Shown: positions 24,613-38,370 of the stretch, piece after piece
Numbering within the stretch: position 1 is the stretch's first letter
Layout of the letters: every line of letters starts with the position of its first letter
Assembly (NCBI RefSeq): GCF_007475525.1
Contig: NZ_CP037899.1
Span: forward strand, 744,001-808,000
Source of the DNA: Methylacidiphilum kamchatkense Kam1
GTDB lineage: Bacteria > Verrucomicrobiota > Verrucomicrobiia > Methylacidiphilales > Methylacidiphilaceae
Length of the DNA stretch: 64,000 nucleotides
Reading direction: 5' to 3'
Translations under genes and position numbers: made by a program
Notes under the pieces: generated by a model
Seen by the model: only the letters and a program-made list of their open reading frames with translations
What the model was told of the DNA's origin: nothing
The model's database searches: none

Positions 24613-25023
24613 CTATTTACCTTGGCATTCATGTATGTATCGTCGGATAACCTCTGCTGACACGCTTCCCGCCGTACCCACATAGTACGCCTGCGTCCAA
24701 AGCTGCTCTCGTCCGCATGCCTTTTTGAGCCAGGGAAATTGCTCACGCAACTTCCTCGACGTATAGCCTTTCAGCAGGCCCACGATGGTGGCTGGCGCCC
24801 ATCGAGGCGGCGCGGATACGAAGCAATGCACATGGTCGATGTCCATTTCCATGGCCAGAAGTGTAAATCCGTGTTGGACGCAACACTCCGCGATGAATCT
24901 CTTGCAGGCGCTCTCCACCTTGCCGGTGAGCACTTTCCGACGATACTTCGGAATCCATACGAAGTGGTACGCAATTTGATAGTGCGTCCATCTGGTTTTT
25001 CCGGTTTGCAATGTATCGCTCAT
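24613..25023 (-). CDS. tnpA: IS200/IS605 Y1 transposase TnpA, copy 2
   Basis: 136 residues, identical in translation to the first copy, with H64-V65-H66 and Y129 intact. Start taken at 25023 for the same reasons. It diverges from tnpB by 18 bases. Confidence 0.9.
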   Translation of the reverse strand: MSDTLQTGKTRWTHYQIAYHFVWIPKYRRKVLTGKVESACKRFIAECCVQHGFTLLAMEMDIDHVHCFVSAPPRWAPATIVGLLKGYTSRKLREQFPWLKKACGREQLWTQAYYVGTAGSVSAEVIRRYIHECQGK

Positions 25024-25041
25024 GTACCTAGAATAACAGGC

Positions 25042-26322
25042 ATGGAACGGGTACGCATCCTGTCTCTCAAGGGAATTTCCAGGCGTTTGCAAGCCCTCAT
25101 CCGGGATGGGCAGGCGGAGTCTGCTCGCGTCTGGACCCTGTGCCGGGACATGCACCTTGCGGCCAGACAGAAAAACCAACCTTGGCCTGGCAAAAGGGAG
25201 TTTCACGAAGCCACCAGAGGTGGCAAATTCGCCCTGCACTCCCAAAGTGTTCAGCAGGTGTTCCGGGCATTTGACGCGGCGGTACAGTCAACCCGTGAGA
25301 ATCGCAAAGCTGGATGCCGGGAAATCCGCTATCCATACAAGGACAAACGCTTTTACCCGCTGATGTGGCCGGCCCAGGCCATGTGTCTGGAAGAGAAGCG
25401 CATCGTGCTCCCGATGGGGCGCGGGCGTCACTCTTTGGTGCTTCCTCGTCCAGCGTGGCTGGAAAGTCCTCGCGCCTGCAAAATCGTCTGGAATGGTGTT
25501 CACGACGAACTGCATGTCAGCATACCGGAGACTGGTGGACCGCCGGATACCACAGCGCCCGCCGAAAAACACGCCACGGTGGACCTTGGACAAATCCACC
25601 AAGCCGCAGTCGTCACGAATACCGGCGAAGCGCTGGTGGTATCCGGCAGAGGCATCCGTTCCCTCAAGCGGTTGCACAGCAAACAACTGGGCGAAATCCA
25701 GAAAAAGCGAGCCAACTGCCAAAAAGGCTCGCGGCGCTGGCGCAAGCTCGGACGGACACGTGCGAAGCTCACCCTGCGCCATAAACGCCGCGTCCGCGAC
25801 CTGCGCCACAAAGGCACCCGGGCGGTGGTGGACTTCTGCGAGGACCGTGGCATCGAAGCCCTTTTTGTCGGAAACCCGGACGGGGTTCGCCGCAAGCATG
25901 CTGGACGCCACCACAATCAGCGTATGAGCCAGTGGGAGTACGGCAAGGATATCCAGTATCTGGAACAAAAGTCGGAACAAGACCGCATCGCGTGCTTCAC
26001 CGGGAGCGAAAGAGGTACGTCCAGCCGGTGTCCCGTATGCGGCCATCGCCACAAGCCCAAAGGGCGGATCTGGCGATGCAAAACCTGTGGATTTGAAGGC
26101 CACAGGGATATCGTGGGCGCTGTAAACATGCACCCCATCGCCTTCGGTCAAGGAGTGCCGTTCCCTCAACGCATCACGTATCTACGTCTGGGGAATCTCC
26201 GGCGTAGTAGTAGCCCGGACACGGGCCAACGTTGTCTAGCCGAATCGCAAGCGTCAAGCACCACGCCGGAGACGGCGCGGGTTCCCTCCGGGAGCAGCCC
26301 ACGGCTTGCGATATGTGGTTAG
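25042..26322 (+). CDS. tnpB: TnpB RNA-guided nuclease, copy 2
   Basis: 426 residues, identical to copy 1 except for Leu in place of Pro in the low-complexity tail (TYLRLGN). Catalytic D181 and D356, the VGNPDGV variant at RuvC-II and the four zinc cysteines are unchanged. The substitution lies where the omega-RNA probably overlaps the gene, so it may alter RNA rather than protein function. Confidence 0.87.
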   Translation: MERVRILSLKGISRRLQALIRDGQAESARVWTLCRDMHLAARQKNQPWPGKREFHEATRGGKFALHSQSVQQVFRAFDAAVQSTRENRKAGCREIRYPYKDKRFYPLMWPAQAMCLEEKRIVLPMGRGRHSLVLPRPAWLESPRACKIVWNGVHDELHVSIPETGGPPDTTAPAEKHATVDLGQIHQAAVVTNTGEALVVSGRGIRSLKRLHSKQLGEIQKKRANCQKGSRRWRKLGRTRAKLTLRHKRRVRDLRHKGTRAVVDFCEDRGIEALFVGNPDGVRRKHAGRHHNQRMSQWEYGKDIQYLEQKSEQDRIACFTGSERGTSSRCPVCGHRHKPKGRIWRCKTCGFEGHRDIVGAVNMHPIAFGQGVPFPQRITYLRLGNLRRSSSPDTGQRCLAESQASSTTPETARVPSGSSPRLAICG

Positions 26323-29871: not shown

Positions 29872-30843
29872 ATGAATTTGATTAGTTTAGCGAAAAAAGT
29901 TTTTGATCTAGAAATGGACGCTCTGCGTTCTGTTCAAAAACAGCTAGACTCTTCTTTTGAACAAACCATTGAGGTTTTGGAAAGAACGATCTTAGCTAAT
30001 AGAAAAATTGTCATTACCGGAGTTGGAAAATCAGGCCATATTGGTAGAAAAATAGCAGCTACTTTAACAAGCACTGGAGCCCCAAGCGTGGTGCTTGATG
30101 CTGTTAATGCGTTCCATGGAGACTTGGGAATGGTTAATAAGGGAGATGCTGTTATTGCATTAAGTTATAGTGGAGAAACGGAAGAAATTCTTAGGCTTAT
30201 CCCTCATTTAAAAAGAATTGCAACCTCTTTGGTTTCCATTACTGGCAATGAAAATTCGACATTAGCGAAAAATTCTGATCTTATTTTGAATGTTAGGGTC
30301 AGTAGGGAAGCTTGCCCTTTGAACTTAGCTCCTACCTCGAGTACCACAGCAATGCTGGTTTTAGGGGATGCAATAGCTATGGTGTTACTTGAAAAACGAG
30401 GATTTAAAAAAGAGGATTTTGCCCGCTTTCATCCTGGAGGAACACTGGGTAGGAATTTACTCTTAAAGGTAGGGGATATAATGCGTCCTTTGCCTCAAAT
30501 TGTAGTTCTCGAAGCGGAGGCGAAAGTAAAAGAGGCTCTGAAGCTGTGGAATATAAAAAGAGCGGGAGCTGTGGTGGTGGTAGATTCAGAGAGAAAAGTC
30601 ATTGGGATCTTTACCCATGGAGATTTCGTAAGGAATTACGAGCTGAATCCCAAAATTGGCGAAGTATCATTAGGAAATGTGATGACCAAAAATCCAGTAA
30701 CAGTGCGAGTCGATAAACTTGCAGTTGAAGTTCTTAATGTTTTTGAACACAATAAAATAGAAGATTTAATTGTTGTGGATGAAGCTTACAAAGTGGTAGG
30801 TTTAATAGATTCTCAGGATTTAGCGATCCATCGATTGTTATAA
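29872..30843 (+). CDS. kdsD: KpsF/GutQ-type arabinose-5-phosphate isomerase
   Basis: 323 residues from ATG 29872 ([11 protein letters not shown]). It interconverts ribulose-5-phosphate and arabinose-5-phosphate, the first step to Kdo in lipopolysaccharide. The N-terminal SIS domain has [21 protein letters not shown] and [13 protein letters not shown]; the catalytic HPGGTLGR is at its end; two CBS domains follow (residues ~205-320). A GTG four codons upstream is an alternative start. It is followed after 11 bases by efp. Confidence 0.9.
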
Positions 30844-30854
30844 GGAGATTGGTT

Positions 30855-31415
30855 ATGTTTGTGAATGCGAGTGACATCGGAAAAGGTCAAGCGATACGGC
30901 ATAACGGAGCTATTTGTCTTGTTTTAGATACAATGCATAGAACCCCAGGTAATTTAAGAGCTTTTGTACAGATGACTTTGAGAAATTTGAAAACGGGGAA
31001 GTCTTTTGTTGAAAGATTTGGCTCTCAAGACAAAGTGGAGTTGCTCTCTTTAGTCCGAAGGCGTTGCGAGTATAGTTATAGAGAAGGCAATAGTTTTGTT
31101 TTTATGGATCCTGAAACTTATGAGACCTTTTCTGTTCCGGAGGAGATGGTAGGAAAAGCCAAGGATTTTTTAAAGGAGAATCAACCTGTTGATCTGCTGT
31201 TTGCTGATGATACGTTAGCTGCTATAGAACTGCCCCAAAGTGTGGTGTTGAAAGTCGTGGAAGCTCCAGAAGGAGTGAAGGGTGATTCTGCAACTAATGT
31301 GATGAAGCCAGCTATCCTTGAAACGGGGTTATGTATTCAGGTTCCGCTTTTTATTAAGGAAGGAGAATTGGTAAAAGTAAGCACTACTGATGGAAAGTAT
31401 TTGAGCCGGGCGTAA
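30855..31415 (+). CDS. efp: Elongation factor P
   Basis: 186 residues from ATG 30855, set by AAGGAG at 30842-30847. EF-P binds between P and E sites and relieves stalling at polyproline. Three beta-barrel domains are recognisable, ending [13 protein letters not shown]. The loop that carries the modified Lys/Arg in characterised EF-Ps (PGKGQAF in E. coli) here reads PGNLRAF, with Asn33 at the Lys34 place. The known modification enzymes would not apply. It follows kdsD closely and ends in a clear terminator. Confidence 0.92.
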
Positions 31416-31437
31416 AAAATATTTTCCGGCTTTTTTT
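31404..31437 (+). terminator. Rho-independent terminator after efp
   Basis: AGCCGG (31404-31409) pairs with CCGGCT (31426-31431), followed by a T run to 31437. The stem begins inside the last codons of efp. Confidence 0.75.
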
Positions 31438-31478
31438 GCTGTTAGAAATATACTTTTAAAAGATACTTTTAAAAGCCT

Positions 31479-32324
31479 GTGGCGGTCTATATGGGAAAAG
31501 GTCTTGTTGAAGATTTGGATTGGACAGATCTGTGGAATGAGATTTTGCTCAAAGCTCAAAAAGGTCAAGAATTGACCGATACGGAGCTGGCACGAAAAGC
31601 AGGAGTCAAAATAGAGGATTTAAGAAAACTGAAAAATGGGGTGCTTAATGAAAAGGCTCTTTTTTTAGTTGCTCAGGCTCTTTCCTTGAGTGGTGAAATT
31701 TTGCTATCAATGGCTACTGGAAAATGTAATCCTCAACCGTTGTCTCTTCCCTTCTTTTTAAAAAAAATATCGATAGAAGAGACACCTGAAAAAAAATCTT
31801 ATCTATTAATAGACAAGAAAACTAACAAAACATTCTTGATAGATCCTCCAAATAAGCAATTGATCGAAAATTATGTCAATGATAGGGAGTATGGACTGGA
31901 TCATGTCTTTCTTTTTTCTTTGGAACAAATTCAGGAATTAGCCGATGTTCTAAAAAGTTTTTCCTTGGCTTGTTCAGCTCCTTCTAAAGAGGGGCAATTA
32001 GTAAGGAAAGAGGAATGGTTTGGATCGTTCAAAGTGGAGCTTATTCCTTTAATCGATAAAATATTTTACTTTGTCCATCCTCCTGAATCTCCTCCATTGG
32101 TTTTTGTCGGAAAATATTTTATTTCTGGATCTATTTCCTATGAAGAAACCGGTTATTATAAGACTCTTGAACTGATTCGATCTACGCTGTTTGGATTTCC
32201 GGATGAAACCATCATTTGTCCAAGGATTGGCCCCCTATCAACCGTGGGCTTTGAAAAAGGACATAACCCTTTTTTTCCTGAATACCAGATTTATTCTTCT
32301 TTTCAACTGCTTACCGAAATTTAA
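31479..32324 (+). CDS. HTH protein with C-terminal metal-ligand-less metallo-beta-lactamase-like domain
   Basis: About 281 residues from GTG 31479; ATG 31491 is an alternative start. Residues ~30-85 form an XRE-like helix-turn-helix (LTDTELARKAGVKIEDLRKLKNG). The rest resembles a glyoxalase-II/metallo-beta-lactamase fold: KKSYLLIDKKTNKTFLIDPPN is the first strand pair, and VFVGKYFISGSISYEE then DETIICPRIGPLSTVGFEKGHNPFF match its end. The ligands are gone: no HxHxDH is present, GD has become GK and the final GHG has become RIG. It is probably a sensor-type regulator rather than an enzyme. Confidence 0.65.
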   Translation: MAVYMGKGLVEDLDWTDLWNEILLKAQKGQELTDTELARKAGVKIEDLRKLKNGVLNEKALFLVAQALSLSGEILLSMATGKCNPQPLSLPFFLKKISIEETPEKKSYLLIDKKTNKTFLIDPPNKQLIENYVNDREYGLDHVFLFSLEQIQELADVLKSFSLACSAPSKEGQLVRKEEWFGSFKVELIPLIDKIFYFVHPPESPPLVFVGKYFISGSISYEETGYYKTLELIRSTLFGFPDETIICPRIGPLSTVGFEKGHNPFFPEYQIYSSFQLLTEI

Positions 32325-32444
32325 GAAAATCCAAGACGCTTTGTTTTATGATTGGCAATCCAATGGTTTTAAAGCACAACAATTTTTTGTTTTTTTATGA
32401 AATGCAAAATATTTTAGGTTAAATTTTGTCGGAGCTGCGGTTAA

Positions 32445-33413
32445 ATGAATGACGAATATAAATTATTAAAAATATTTTCTGGCAGAGCGAATCCGGCTCT
32501 GGCAACAAAAATTGCTCAGTATGTCGGCATACCTCTTGGGCAAGCAACCATTTCATCATTCCCTGATGGAGAAACCTTTGTAAAATTTAACGAAAATATT
32601 CGAGGCAGAGATGTTTTTATTGTGCAGCCTACCTGTCCTCCGACTAATCATAATCTAATGGAATTATTGATTATGATTGATGCTGCCAAAAGAGCAAGTG
32701 CAGCAAGAGTTACAGCCGTAATTCCTTTTTATGGTTATGCCCGGCAAGATCGGAAAGATCAGCCAAGAGTATCTATAACGGCTAAACTGGTTGCGAACCT
32801 CCTCGTAGCCGCTGGAGCCAACAGAGTGCTGGCAATGGATCTTCATGCCCAACAAATTCAAGGTTTTTTTGACATTCCCGTAGATCATCTTACAGCTGTT
32901 CCTGTTTTTTATAAGTTTCTTGAGGCAAACAATCTACTCGATCTTGTTGTTGTCTCTCCAGATGTAGGAGGGATAAAAATGGCCTCTACCTATGCTCAAT
33001 TGTTGGGGAAAGGGCTTACTTTAGTGGTTAAGAAGAGGGTGGATGCCTATCATACGGAAGCGGATTTCGTTGTTGGTGATGTGGAAGGAAAGGATGTATT
33101 GATTGTCGATGATTTAACAGAAACGGCTGGAACTGTAGTTTCTGCGGCAACGATTTTAAAAAAAATGGGAGCCAGAAGGATTTATGCTGGAATTTCTCAT
33201 GCCGTTCTTAATCAGATTGGTATAGGCAGGCTGAGAAGTTCACATCTTGAAGAATTAATTACTACTAACAGCGTTCCCGTTCCTGTAGTTGAAGGAGTTC
33301 GGGTAACGGTGTTAGATGTTGCCCCCCTTTTGGGAGAAGCCATTAAAAGAATTCATACAGGGATGTCCGTAACCTCTCTATTCGAGGTTGACGGAAAGAA
33401 AATTAATCTTTAA
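32445..33413 (+). CDS. prs: Ribose-phosphate pyrophosphokinase
   Basis: 322 residues. It makes PRPP from ribose-5-phosphate and ATP for nucleotide, His and Trp synthesis. Seen are SFPDGETFVKFNENIRG, the flexible-loop YARQDRKDQPR, the DLHAQQIQGFF Mg-binding region and the PRPP loop DDLTETAGTV. The length is typical. Its 3' end is followed directly by the Lrp-type regulator. Confidence 0.95.
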   Translation: MNDEYKLLKIFSGRANPALATKIAQYVGIPLGQATISSFPDGETFVKFNENIRGRDVFIVQPTCPPTNHNLMELLIMIDAAKRASAARVTAVIPFYGYARQDRKDQPRVSITAKLVANLLVAAGANRVLAMDLHAQQIQGFFDIPVDHLTAVPVFYKFLEANNLLDLVVVSPDVGGIKMASTYAQLLGKGLTLVVKKRVDAYHTEADFVVGDVEGKDVLIVDDLTETAGTVVSAATILKKMGARRIYAGISHAVLNQIGIGRLRSSHLEELITTNSVPVPVVEGVRVTVLDVAPLLGEAIKRIHTGMSVTSLFEVDGKKINL

Positions 33414-33423
33414 AAAAAATTGT

Positions 33424-33933
33424 GTGCATAACTTTTTGAAAGCTAATCCTCAATTAATTGGCGATATCGTTAGACTGTTAGAAAAAAATGCTCGTCTTTC
33501 CCTATCGGATATAGCTTCGGCGTTAGGAATATCCGTTGAGGAAACGGCAGCTCTTTTGAAAGAGCTGGAAAAAGAGAAGTTCATTTTGGCGTATAAGACC
33601 ATCTTTGATCCAGAAAAAATACAGAAAAACAGAGTACGTGCCGTCATTGAAGTCAAAATTACTCCTGAGCGAGGAGGTGGTTTTGATAAGCTATCCAAGC
33701 GAATAGCCGGTTTTGAAGAGGTTACTTCTTGTTTCTTAATGAGTGGGGGCTATGATCTACTTGTTTTCCTAGAAGGAGAAAGTCTCAAAGAGGTTGCTCT
33801 TTTTGTTTCAGAAAAATTGGCTACGCTACCTGGGGTTATTTCTACAGCAACTCATTTTATGCTAAAAACTTACAAAGAACAAGGAATCATTTTTTCTACT
33901 CCATCCCATTTTCGTCTGCCTGTAAGTCCGTAA
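33424..33933 (+). CDS. Lrp/AsnC family transcriptional regulator
   Basis: About 169 residues from a GTG at 33424, just after prs; an open frame extends back into prs but that start (TTG 33388) lies inside the prs coding end. N-terminal HTH: LSLSDIASALGISVEETAALLKELEKEK. The C-terminal RAM domain covers residues ~65-150. Members sense amino acids and control their metabolism. The aminotransferase starts 9 bases downstream, so it is a likely target and operon partner. The exact start is unsure. Confidence 0.82.
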   Translation: MHNFLKANPQLIGDIVRLLEKNARLSLSDIASALGISVEETAALLKELEKEKFILAYKTIFDPEKIQKNRVRAVIEVKITPERGGGFDKLSKRIAGFEEVTSCFLMSGGYDLLVFLEGESLKEVALFVSEKLATLPGVISTATHFMLKTYKEQGIIFSTPSHFRLPVSP

Positions 33934-33942
33934 TTTCCTTTC

Positions 33943-35178
33943 ATGAAAAAACATCCCGTTATCAATTCTACCGAAAAAATAGTGCCTTTTGATTTTCGGA
34001 CTAAGCTACCAATAGCCAAACATCTTTCCTCAATTGGAAAATCGTCAATCAGGGATTTTTTCGAACTTGTCCAGAACCAAACGGATGTGATTTCCTTAGG
34101 GATTGGTGAACCGGACTTTGATACTCCCTGGATGATTAGAGAAGCAGCCATTTATTCCCTTGAAAAGGGAGAGACAGGCTACACATCTAATCTTGGCCTT
34201 ATAGAACTCCGAAAATTAATAGCCCAATATGTATCGAAACTAATCGGTGTCGACTACAACCCCTATGAAGAGATCCTTGTAACGGTAGGGGTTTCAGAAG
34301 GGCTTGATTGTGCTTTAAGAGCGATAATCGATCCTTTTGACGAAGTCATAATCCATCAGCCTTCTTATGTGTCTTATGTTCCTTTGGTGGTTCTTGCCTA
34401 TGGCGTGCCTGTCATTGTTGAAACATTAGAAAAAGACGGATTTCAACTTGATCCAGTTGCGGTCGAAAAAAAAATTACCCCAAAAACCAAAGCAATTATT
34501 CTAAACTTCCCCACGAACCCTACAGGAAGCATTGAAAATGAAGAGAAACTGCAAGCCATTGCTCAATTAGCTTGTAAGCATAATCTTTATGTAATCAGTG
34601 ATGAAATTTATGCGGAACTGATGTATGAAGGCACGCATCGTTCGATAGTCGCTCTTGATAGAATGAAAGAAAGGAGCCTTTTTCTACATGGGTTTTCTAA
34701 GGCGTTCTCTATGACAGGTTTTAGGATAGGGTATGCCTGTGGCCCAAAGGAGTGGATTGAGGCGATGATGAAAATTCATCAATATTCGATTCTCTGTGCT
34801 TCTTCCATAGCCCAGCAAGCAGCTATAGAAGCCTTATTGCATGGAAAGAAAGATATGGAACAAATGGTTGAAGAATATAGATTGCGTCGGAACTTTCTGT
34901 GGAAACATCTTTCTTCCTTAGGTCTTGTCGGGAATCTGCCCAAGGGGACCTTTTACTATTTTCCTTCGATTCGACATTTTGGATTGTCATCAAAAGAATT
35001 TTGTTATCGACTGCTCCAGGAGGGAGGAGTGGCACTGGTTCCTGGTTCTGCTTTTGGACAGGGGGGAGAAGGATATGTGAGATGTAGTTTTGCCACCCGT
35101 TTTGAAGATCTCGAAATAGCTGTCCGAAGAATCGAAAGTTGGTTAAAAAAAATTGAAAAAGAAGGGAAGAAACAATAA
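33943..35178 (+). CDS. Class I/II aminotransferase (AspC/PatA-like)
   Basis: 411 residues. Fold type I PLP enzyme: NFPTNPTGS substrate loop, SDEIYAELMY with the PLP aspartate, and SKAFSMTGFRIGY with the Schiff-base Lys. About 20 extra N-terminal residues precede the usual start of the fold. It resembles aspartate or diaminopimelate-related aminotransferases; the substrate cannot be decided. It lies 9 bases after the Lrp-type regulator. Confidence 0.88.
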   Translation: MKKHPVINSTEKIVPFDFRTKLPIAKHLSSIGKSSIRDFFELVQNQTDVISLGIGEPDFDTPWMIREAAIYSLEKGETGYTSNLGLIELRKLIAQYVSKLIGVDYNPYEEILVTVGVSEGLDCALRAIIDPFDEVIIHQPSYVSYVPLVVLAYGVPVIVETLEKDGFQLDPVAVEKKITPKTKAIILNFPTNPTGSIENEEKLQAIAQLACKHNLYVISDEIYAELMYEGTHRSIVALDRMKERSLFLHGFSKAFSMTGFRIGYACGPKEWIEAMMKIHQYSILCASSIAQQAAIEALLHGKKDMEQMVEEYRLRRNFLWKHLSSLGLVGNLPKGTFYYFPSIRHFGLSSKEFCYRLLQEGGVALVPGSAFGQGGEGYVRCSFATRFEDLEIAVRRIESWLKKIEKEGKKQ

Positions 35179-35243
35179 ATGAATAGTTAGGAAAGAAAGC
35201 TTATAGTATTTAGAAAAATATTTAATAGCGATCAAGGAGACTT

Positions 35244-35705
35244 GTGGGTATTCAGACAACGCAAGATAGGCAGCCGGAAAAAATTAGCCAATTTACCGTT
35301 TTCATGGAGAATAAAGCGGGAAGACTTTTAGAGTTAGTGCGTCTTTTGGAAAGTCATGAAATCCACATCATAGGTTTTACTATTTTAGACACCTCTGAAG
35401 CCTCCACCATTCGATTGGTGGTTGATGACCCTCAAAATGCTAGAAAGATTCTTGCTGAAAATGGAATATCTTATACGGAATGCTCTCTCATTGCCTTGGA
35501 GCTTCCGCAATCAGCTGAAGATCTAAGAAAAGTCCTTACAGTGCTGCTTCAAGCTGAAATCAATATTTATTTTAGCTATCCTTTCCTGACAAGACCCTAT
35601 GGGAAAGCGGTATTGGCACTTAGGGTTGAAGATGAAGAATTAGCCATATCCGTACTTTTAAGAAACAATTATCGGGTGCTCTTTCAAAAAGATATTAGCA
35701 GGTAG
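35244..35705 (+). CDS. Tandem ACT-domain protein
   Basis: 153 residues from a GTG at 35244. Two ACT domains are visible: [31 protein letters not shown], then [31 protein letters not shown] pairs bind amino acids and act as regulatory sensors. It has no enzymatic domain. It sits between the aminotransferase and metK on the same strand, so it may sense an amino acid such as Met. Confidence 0.85.
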
Positions 35706-35767
35706 AAAAAGTTTTTTTTATTTTAAAAAAGATTGTTTTTTTTTCTTATATTCTCATTGTAGCTATT

Positions 35768-36958
35768 ATGTCTAAGTCTTATGTTTTTGCTTCTGAATCC
35801 GTGACGGAAGGCCATCCAGATAAAGTATGCGATACCATTTCGGATACCGTTTTGGACCATTGCCTTCAGCAGGATAAGTTCAGTAGAGTGGCCTGTGAGA
35901 CCCTTGTGAAGGAAAACCTGGTCGTGCTAGCAGGAGAAATTACCACCAAGGCTAATCTAGATTATATAAAGATTGTCAAAGATACGGTTCGGCAAATAGG
36001 ATATAATGATCCCAAAAGCCTATTTTACCCTGAAAAATTACATATCGTTTGTGCGATTTCCAAACAAAGCTCAGACATTGCCTTGGGGGTTGATGGGCAG
36101 AAAGAACGTCATAATATAGGAAAAAATCTTGATCAGGGTGCAGGGGATCAAGGACTAATGTTTGGTTTTGCATGTACTGAGACTCCTGAACTTATGCCTG
36201 CACCAATTACTTTTGCTCATAGACTTTCTAGAAGATTAACTGAATTAAGGAAAAAAGAAGGGTGTCCTTGGTTGCGGCCTGATGGGAAAACGCAGGTATC
36301 TCTTTATTATGAGGACAATAAACCATTGCGCGTTGAGGCCATTGTTGTGTCGACACAGCATACCGAAGAGGTTTCTAACAAAGAAATAGAAGAAATCATA
36401 AAGAAAGAAGTCATTCAGAAGGCCATACCTGAAGAATTTCTCCACAAAAAAACGGTTTTTTACATTAACCCAACTGGTAGGTTTGTTGCCGGGGGGCCAG
36501 ATGCCGACTCTGGAGTTACTGGGAGAAAAATTATTGTTGATACCTATGGAGGCATGGGGCGACATGGGGGAGGTGCATTTAGTGGGAAAGATCCTTCGAA
36601 AGTGGACAGAAGTGCTGCTTATATGGCTAGATATATTGCCAAAAATATTGTGGCAGCAAAAATTGCTACCAAAGTCGAAGTTCAAATAGCTTATGCTATT
36701 GGAAAAGCTGATCCGGTTTCGGTTGCTGTTGATACTTTTGAAACAGGACTTGTGGAAGATAAAAAAATAGAAAGGGCAATTCGTGAGGTTTTTCGGCTTA
36801 AGCCTGCTGAAATAATTGAAGAACTGAACTTACTTCGACCTATTTATAGTAAAATCACCAATTATGGCCATTTTGGTAGAAACGACCAGTTTGATATCTT
36901 TAGCTGGGAAAAAACTGATAAAGTAAATGATTTGCTTACTGCCGTAGGGTTGGTGTAG
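35768..36958 (+). CDS. metK: S-adenosylmethionine synthetase
   Basis: 396 residues. It forms SAM from Met and ATP. Seen are [16 protein letters not shown] at the N-terminus, [15 protein letters not shown], the [22 protein letters not shown] loop (both Mg/ATP sites) and a typical length. It begins the SAM cycle with ahcY downstream on the same strand. Upstream is a long T-rich stretch without a recognisable SAM riboswitch. Confidence 0.96.
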
Positions 36959-37065
36959 ACAGTTCAAAACGCCAATCAATTACTAGACCCTTGTCTATTT
37001 CTTCATGAATAAACCAACAATCATACTAGGATAGTTTTAGAAGCATGCTTATGGAAGGAGTTAAT

Positions 37066-38370
37066 ATGGCTGATTTTAAAGTAAAAGACATGGAGCTTGC
37101 CGATTTTGGCCGAAAGGAAATTGAAGTGGCAGAGGATGAAATGCCTGGCCTGATGGCTCTTAGAAAAGAATATAAGGGGTTATATCCATTAAAAGGAACT
37201 CGGATTGCTGGCTGTCTTCACATGACCGTTGAGACGGCCGTTTTGATAGAAACTTTGGTTGAGCTTGGGGCATCGGTCAGATGGAGTTCCTGCAACATTT
37301 TTTCTACTCAGGATCATGCTGCTGCGGCGATTGCTGCTAGGGGCATTCCAGTTTTTGCTTGGAAAGGTGAAACATTGGAGGAATATGAGTGGTGCATTGA
37401 ACAAACGTTAAGATGGCCCGATGGTCAAGCTTTAAACATGATCTTAGACGATGGTGGCGATCTGACTGAACTTGTGCACCAGAAGTATCCAGAACTACTA
37501 GATGGGATTGTAGGTATTTCTGAAGAAACAACAACAGGAGTTCATAGATTGTACCAAAGAGAGGCCAAAGGGACCTTGGGGCCTCCAAGTATGAACGTTA
37601 ATGATTCCTGCACAAAAAGCAAATTCGATAATCTCTATGGTTGCCGGGAATCCTTTCTTGATGGTGTAAAAAGGGCTACCGATGTGATGATTGCAGGGAA
37701 AATTGTCGTTGTTTGTGGGTATGGGGATGTTGGGAAAGGCTGTGTCCAATCAGCCAAAGGGATGGGAGCGCGGGTTATCGTTACAGAAATTGATCCTATT
37801 AATGCCTTGCAAGCTTCAATGGATGGTTATGAAGTAACTCTTTTGGAGGATGTGGTAGAAAAAGCTGATCTGTTTGTAACAGCGACTGGGTGTATTAATG
37901 TCATCCGAAGAGAACATATGGATAGAATGAAGTCTGGAGCCATCGTATGTAATATTGGACATTTCGATTCAGAAATAGAAGTAAGATCACTATATGAGGA
38001 TAAGAATTTGCAACGGATCCAAATAAAGCCACAGGTAGATATGTTCATTTGGCCCAATGGAAAAAAATTGTATGTATTGGCTGAAGGACGGCTTGTAAAC
38101 TTAGGGTGTGCTAGCGGACATCCAAGTTTTGTCATGAGTGCCAGTTTTACCAATCAAGTTTTAGCTCAAATTGAATTATGGACCAAACGCCACAGTGGGG
38201 AATATAAAAGGGGTAAAGTCTATACCCTACCCAAGATCCTCGATGAAAAAGTGGCAAGGTTACACCTAGATAAGCTGGGTGTAAAACTAACCCGCTTGAC
38301 AAAAGAGCAAGCAGATTACTTGGGTGTTCCAATTGAAGGACCTTATAAACCTAATCATTATCGCTATTAA
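37066..38370 (+). CDS. ahcY: Adenosylhomocysteinase
   Basis: 434 residues from ATG 37066, with GGAAGGAG at 37053-37060 as SD; ATG 37045 would contain that SD and is rejected. It hydrolyses S-adenosylhomocysteine to homocysteine and adenosine. NAD-binding loop: [17 protein letters not shown]. Further signatures are [20 protein letters not shown] and the C-terminal PNHYRY. No SAH riboswitch is visible upstream. Confidence 0.95.

Follow-up and report, generated by a model that had tools for sequence, protein, structure and literature searches.

A probable ligand-less metallo-beta-lactamase pseudoenzyme with a Cro/C1-like domain, encoded between efp and prs in Methylacidiphilum kamchatkense

The efp-prs locus

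The window analysed here is a 64,000-nucleotide stretch of the genome of Methylacidiphilum kamchatkense Kam1, a single contig of 2.20 Mb (genome G000 in our set). On its forward strand, an open reading frame at 31479-32324 lies between two conserved neighbours, efp, encoding elongation factor P (30849..31415, + strand), and prs, encoding ribose-phosphate pyrophosphokinase (32445..33413, + strand). A gene for a SIS/CBS protein also lies to the left, and to the right prs is followed by genes for an Lrp/AsnC regulator, an aminotransferase, an ACT-pair protein, MetK and AhcY. The order of this last cluster, from Prs to AhcY (32445-38370), is conserved in the five genomes of the genus that we examined. 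Elsewhere in the window, an ORF at 24739-26322 resembles a TnpB-type transposon protein by eye, with paired CxxC motifs. In Methylacidiphilum sp. Yel, what appears by eye to be the end of an IS200/IS605-type element (L001, 1-130) lies directly 5' of the corresponding gene, at the contig edge.

The ORF could encode 281 residues from a GTG start at 31479, or 277 residues from an ATG at 31491, 12 bases downstream. The start context ATGGGNAA is conserved in G000, G001, G003 and G004, and also in a remnant of the gene in G002 (discussed below). The GTG, compared by eye, is found at an equal distance in G000, G001 and G004, lies at a different one in G003, and is not present in the G002 remnant. The ATG is thus the likelier start, and on the basis of the ORF and this start context we place the gene at 31491..32324 (+ strand), encoding 277 amino acids. 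The closest named relative of the window protein is from Methylacidiphilum sp. Yel, with 91% identity.

The N-terminal domain

Residues 11-79 (31521..31727, + strand) are predicted to form a Cro/C1-like helix-turn-helix (HTH) domain of five helices, an assignment drawn from a family profile, a model of the domain, and its structural neighbours. By itself, the window protein matches HTH families weakly, with 434 Cro at E=0.0071 and RstR at 0.026, the latter an NCBIfam match below its cut-off. The HTH profile of the wider family (47 rows, two of them from the ligand-less clade described below) matches variants of the 434 repressor at 7.1e-6 to 3.1e-5, cyanate hydratase at 2.3e-5 and PhpD at 0.0063. 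A model of the window HTH alone has five helices at a pLDDT of 63.3. Cro/C1 proteins predominate among its structural neighbours, where the scores are weak (best E 0.19, best Z 4.2). Membership in the Cro/C1 (XRE) group is therefore indicated by the sequence similarity of the family profile, while the single protein and the fold model give weak evidence. A preliminary description made from this DNA had placed an HTH before a metallo-beta-lactamase (MBL)-like domain, and this order is borne out by the family HTH profile together with the MBL profile matches given below.

The same description suggested a transcription factor whose effector domain is a pseudoenzyme, perhaps sensing a thioester or nucleotide-like ligand. 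On such a reading the HTH would bind an operator, which might be a palindrome upstream of its own gene, and the dead MBL domain would sense a small ligand. The resemblance of the HTH to 434 Cro, the 434 repressor and other C1 proteins speaks for this reading. Against it, the HTH is common to members that keep their metal ligands, and across the 47 rows of the family variability is greatest in the recognition helix and least in helix 1; acidic residues occur at two positions of the recognition helix, in 22 and 19 of the 47 rows. With the evidence from selection and from the upstream DNA, considered below, we regard a DNA-binding regulator as possible but doubtful.

The metallo-beta-lactamase-like domain

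The second domain, at approximately residues 85-262 (31743..32276, + strand), is a degenerate MBL domain of the YcbL/glyoxalase-II-like kind according to profile matches. Single sequences do not reveal it: the window protein matches no Pfam family at E<=10 and nothing in NCBIfam beyond the HTH matches below their cut-off, and when the nine intact orthologues were scanned singly none matched an MBL model at E<=1. A profile of these nine sequences (A1), however, matches the MBL enzymes BLEG-1 (7ev5, E=1.4e-8) and YcbL (2xf4, E=1.3e-7), with further solved MBL enzymes down to approximately 6e-4, and its alignment by hhalign to the family of ligand-intact paralogues (A2) has a probability of 100 and E=1.3e-44. 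This profile similarity places the domain in the MBL superfamily by descent, which we take as confirmed. The assignment rests on sequence profiles because the full-length AlphaFold2 model, made from a two-row alignment, is of low confidence (pLDDT 43.6); its Foldseek matches (best E 0.05) were to folds of other kinds, did not reach E<=0.001, and were counted neither for nor against the assignment.

When the window protein is aligned to the intact paralogue, the motifs HTHADH, GHS, GD and GHG of the latter correspond to SL--EQ, D--, GK and RIG. The site of the lost HxHxDH motif lies at 31917..31934 (+ strand; approximate placement), the GD to GK change at 32109..32114 (+ strand) and the GHG to RIG change at 32223..32231 (+ strand). 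The alignment confirms the loss of these three motifs, as first noticed in the preliminary description. None of the seven metal ligands is present in eight of the nine ligand-less members, the window protein included, and the one aligned histidine in the ninth (L011) is probably there by chance. The ligands that mark an active MBL hydrolase or glyoxalase II (HxHxDH, H, D and H) are therefore absent, and metal-dependent hydrolysis of the usual kind is very unlikely because every ligand has been lost.

One might suppose instead that the protein is an enzyme with a new active site, either metal-independent or differently liganded. The purifying selection reported below is consistent with this, as is the presence of a few invariant polar residues in the core of the nine orthologues (e.g. 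D108, D118 and E167). The loss of all seven ligands and the concentration of conservation at the ends of the protein make it highly improbable.

Ligand-intact paralogues

The M. kamchatkense genome contains a second HTH-MBL gene (L003, C1:719012-719827), whose product is 31% identical to the window protein and has all of HTHADH, GHS, GD and GHG. Its MBL part is recognized as Pfam Lactamase_B, while its HTH has no Pfam match in that member; it is predicted to be an enzyme. A DUF5069-like gene (below the Pfam cut-off) was found near the ligand-intact HTH-MBL gene at all ten loci examined in the window's family, and all five genomes of the genus also have a metal ABC transporter set, identified by eye, in its vicinity.

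Relatives of the window protein are widespread. A match at E<=0.01 was found in 59 of 60 genomes, many of these to the MBL part only. In a phylum-level sample of 288 genomes, 94 had a match at E<=1e-6, and 50 had a single match spanning both HTH and MBL; all 50 belong to the host's class or a closer group. We took a census of ligands in 119 distinct HTH-MBL ORFs, drawn from the fetched two-domain genes and leaving out the weaker C-terminal-only matches of the 288-genome sample. Rows that agreed in all of their last 150 residues were counted once, and four contig-cut fragments (L025, L093, L110 and L111) and the HTH-less L004 were left out. All seven ligands are kept in 109 ORFs, among which L091 is cut near the C-terminus and the HTH is partly aligned in L090, L097, L099 and L104. 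One ORF keeps six of the seven, and nine, all within the window's own bacterial family, are ligand-less. The ORF with six (L032, from G016) has HGDGDH in place of HxHxDH and is otherwise a ligand-intact HTH-MBL protein.

No relatives were found in viral contigs, and the window protein had no match at E<=0.01 among plasmids and phages. The intact paralogue matched 482 plasmid records, with one place covering at least 80% of the query, within a 382-codon gene of a haloarchaeon annotated as an MBL fold metallo-hydrolase.

These comparisons change part of the earlier picture. The pairing of an HTH with a dead MBL domain stands as a description of composition, although the idea that the HTH was fused to an already dead enzyme does not, as a ligand-intact fusion is present both in the M. 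kamchatkense paralogue and in many other members of the class; as judged from these sequences, the fusion is older than the ligand loss. Homologues that keep the metal ligands had been named in advance as grounds against the reading of the domain as a pseudoenzyme. Such homologues do exist among the paralogues (109 of the 119 ORFs), but not among the orthologues, since all nine intact orthologues lack the ligands. Neither Pfam nor NCBIfam gave a model covering the whole fusion, in agreement with the earlier remark that no named family has this make-up. The window protein is very probably a ligand-less paralogue of a class-wide family of predicted enzymes, in which a Cro/C1-like domain is fused to a YcbL/glyoxalase-II-like MBL domain.

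Inheritance and loss of the ligand-less gene

The nine ligand-less members group together with support of 98/94 in a tree of 59 rows and 99/97 in a tree of 47 rows. Both trees are flagged for odd composition, and in the 59-row tree the join of the two genus groups that makes up the ligand-less clade is flagged as a union of long branches that may be false. Because the trees carry these flags, we looked to locus and tail motif as independent support. A search of homologues with the same fusion and of their neighbours, of the kind proposed in the preliminary description, found the fusion widely, and in eight genomes out of nine it showed the ligand-less gene flanked by efp and prs; in the remaining one (G001) the sequence stops at a contig end on the efp side. 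The C-terminal segment of the protein (residues 236-277; 32196..32321, + strand) is conserved, with 22 of 42 residues invariant among the nine orthologues, and ends in a clade-specific tail, S.F..LTE (32283-32321, + strand). Searched as S.F..[LV]TE, this tail is present in all nine ligand-less proteins and in none of the 110 others, the C-terminus being measurable in 109 of the latter. A single clade is thus supported, with the caveat of the flags, and the ligand-less genes appear to have one origin and to have been inherited at the efp-X-prs locus within one bacterial family. Whether the duplication took place inside this family or earlier is not decisively favoured either way (p-AU 0.393).

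Thirteen genomes of the host's family could be compared. Nine have an intact ORF, and the copy in G012 is truncated by a contig end. The efp-prs slot of G002 and of G006 contains a remnant whose middle is gone; in G006 a short ORF still connects an N-terminal stretch with the tail in one reading frame. In G005 the gene is missing from the locus, with only about 220 bases separating efp from prs. The ligand-intact paralogue is retained in G002, G005 and G006, and the paralogue can therefore do without the ligand-less protein.

The remnants, together with the missing copy, are what would be expected of a slowly decaying duplicate, under weak residual constraint and heading for loss with no distinct new role. 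The nine intact ORFs in two genera argue against this, as do the 22 invariant residues of the C-terminal segment and the clade-specific tail, since free decay would not keep a new motif. Rates of substitution bear on it from both sides.

Selection and conservation

Estimates of omega for the ligand-less gene are 0.20-0.30 in the five closest pairs and 0.14-0.19 in three more distant pairs, which have high dS. In four pairs that were bootstrapped, none of 2000 replicates reached an omega of 1 and the confidence intervals lie below 1. The intact copies are under purifying selection, and a pure pseudogene is ruled out for them by this bootstrap. The gene thus combines ligand loss with purifying selection, as a regulatory pseudoenzyme is expected to. 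The ligand-intact paralogue has an omega of 0.06-0.11 (four pairs, all within genus g1), so that the value for the ligand-less gene is approximately two to four times higher in the same genome pairs. For prs, efp, kdsD and the ACT gene, omega stayed under 0.1 wherever a pair gave an estimate, and the range for the Lrp gene was 0.06-0.14.

The constraint is unevenly spread along the protein. In three pairs from genus g1, omega is 0.11-0.14 for the HTH and 0.24-0.38 for the core; the last 27 residues give 0 to 0.25, too few residues for a firm value. Between the two genera, identity of the ligand-less gene product is 38% in the HTH, 17% in the core and 67% at the C-terminus (about 29 columns), as compared with 53%, 63% and 72% in the ligand-intact paralogue. 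Selection preserves the ends of the protein.

These figures divide among the explanations. The raised omega and the core identity of 17% are compatible with a decaying duplicate, while the confidence intervals below 1 count against it, and on balance we regard mere decay, like the DNA-binding regulator, as possible but doubtful; both are serious rivals to the reading favoured below. The stronger constraint on the HTH than on the core is what a DNA-binding regulator might show, but the small conservation of the core, which contains the former pocket, fits poorly with the sensing of a ligand there.

Upstream DNA

Between efp and the gene, at 31450..31475 (+ strand), lies a tandem pair of ATACTTTTAAAAG, a possible promoter or operator that occurs as a single copy in G001 and G004. 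The tandem pair in the window alone is not beyond chance, as at least two matches at one mismatch also arose in 9 of 100 shuffled versions of the window. An exact 14-mer, TATACTTTTAAAAG, with the palindromic core CTTTTAAAAG, is found once each in G000, G001 and G004, before this gene, and this recurrence speaks for a regulator acting on its own operator. The exact site is absent from G003, which has a 54% identical orthologue, and from G002. The exact 13-mer has three copies in the G000 genome, two being the tandem pair and the third lying inside what appears by eye to be a hisI-like ORF. No regulon is seen, as this is the only other exact copy, and a regulon of the 13-mer was accordingly ruled out.

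A terminator-like hairpin followed by a T-run is present at the end of efp (31403..31438, + strand; z -2.07, with 5 of 200 shuffles folding as well), and it hints that the gene may have a separate promoter. A consensus scan did not list the hairpin, and a promoter scan of 30700-32700 on the + strand listed no site.

Possible function

If the active site is gone and the ends are kept, partner binding is probably a better description of what the protein does than chemistry, because both ends are conserved while the former active site has dissolved. We tentatively favour a pseudoenzyme that binds protein partners through its HTH and its C-terminal end, with the ligand-intact paralogue as the first candidate. 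Loss of the metal ligands would have left the protein without metal-dependent hydrolysis, the HTH would serve in assembly, as in cyanase-like enzymes, rather than in reading DNA, and a second partner-binding end would be formed by the C-terminal segment, which carries the FSSFxxLTE tail. The old MBL core would be retained mainly as a scaffold. The paralogue is the first suspect as partner because the two proteins share both domains.

The match of the HTH profile to cyanate hydratase and PhpD, in which the domain lies within an enzyme, is a point for a role in assembly. Against partner binding, G002, G005 and G006 have the paralogue without an intact ligand-less copy, and the structural neighbours of the HTH model consist for the most part of repressors, antitoxins and further proteins whose titles name them as transcriptional regulators. 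In a more extreme version, which we find improbable, the protein might be a two-ended adaptor in which the HTH and the new C-terminal tail do the work and the MBL core is a replaceable spacer, in which case the short ORF of G006 may itself function.

A single genome carries the fusion both with and without its ligands, and one locus shows intact, eroded and absent copies across related species, so that the route by which an enzyme may become a binding protein can be traced and tested here. In this widespread HTH-MBL family the Cro/C1-like domain may not read DNA at all, which is a caution for automatic annotation.

Comparison with known systems

In the best open-access literature matches, considered by titles and the beginnings of abstracts, we found no description of the HTH-MBL fusion or of this gene. 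Full-text searches turned up little on bacterial MBL pseudoenzymes, the matches being papers on the Integrator complex and on a metformin hydrolase of the ureohydrolase superfamily.

Within the fusion family, the ligand-intact paralogues resemble the window protein in domain order, in the similarity over both domains that hhalign detects, and in a common C-terminal TVGxEKxHNPFF stretch. They differ from it in keeping all metal ligands, in lacking the S.F..LTE tail, and in their DUF5069-like neighbourhood. The closest solved relatives of the MBL domain are the type II glyoxalase-like enzymes YcbL and BLEG-1 (2XF4 and 7EV5), which share a C-terminal GPLxTxGxExxHNPF stretch with the window protein. 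Unlike it, they are metalloenzymes that, at 210 residues, are too short to include an HTH, and the zinc ligands of YcbL/BLEG-1-type enzymes, as given in PMC8431146, have no counterpart in the window protein.

Cyanate hydratase and PhpD offer a parallel for the other half of the protein, having a Cro/C1-like N-terminal stretch within an enzyme, as here, although their catalytic domains are unrelated. The Cro/C1-like domain of cyanase is not known to bind DNA. For the dead MBL domain, the nearest parallels are INTS9 and CPSF100 of eukaryotic RNA processing, which are MBL paralogues without metal ligands, each paired with an active MBL paralogue. They are ligand-less paralogues like the window protein, but they belong to eukaryotic nuclease complexes and have no HTH. 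Pairing with an active paralogue is known for INTS9 and CPSF100, and for the window protein it is a proposal.
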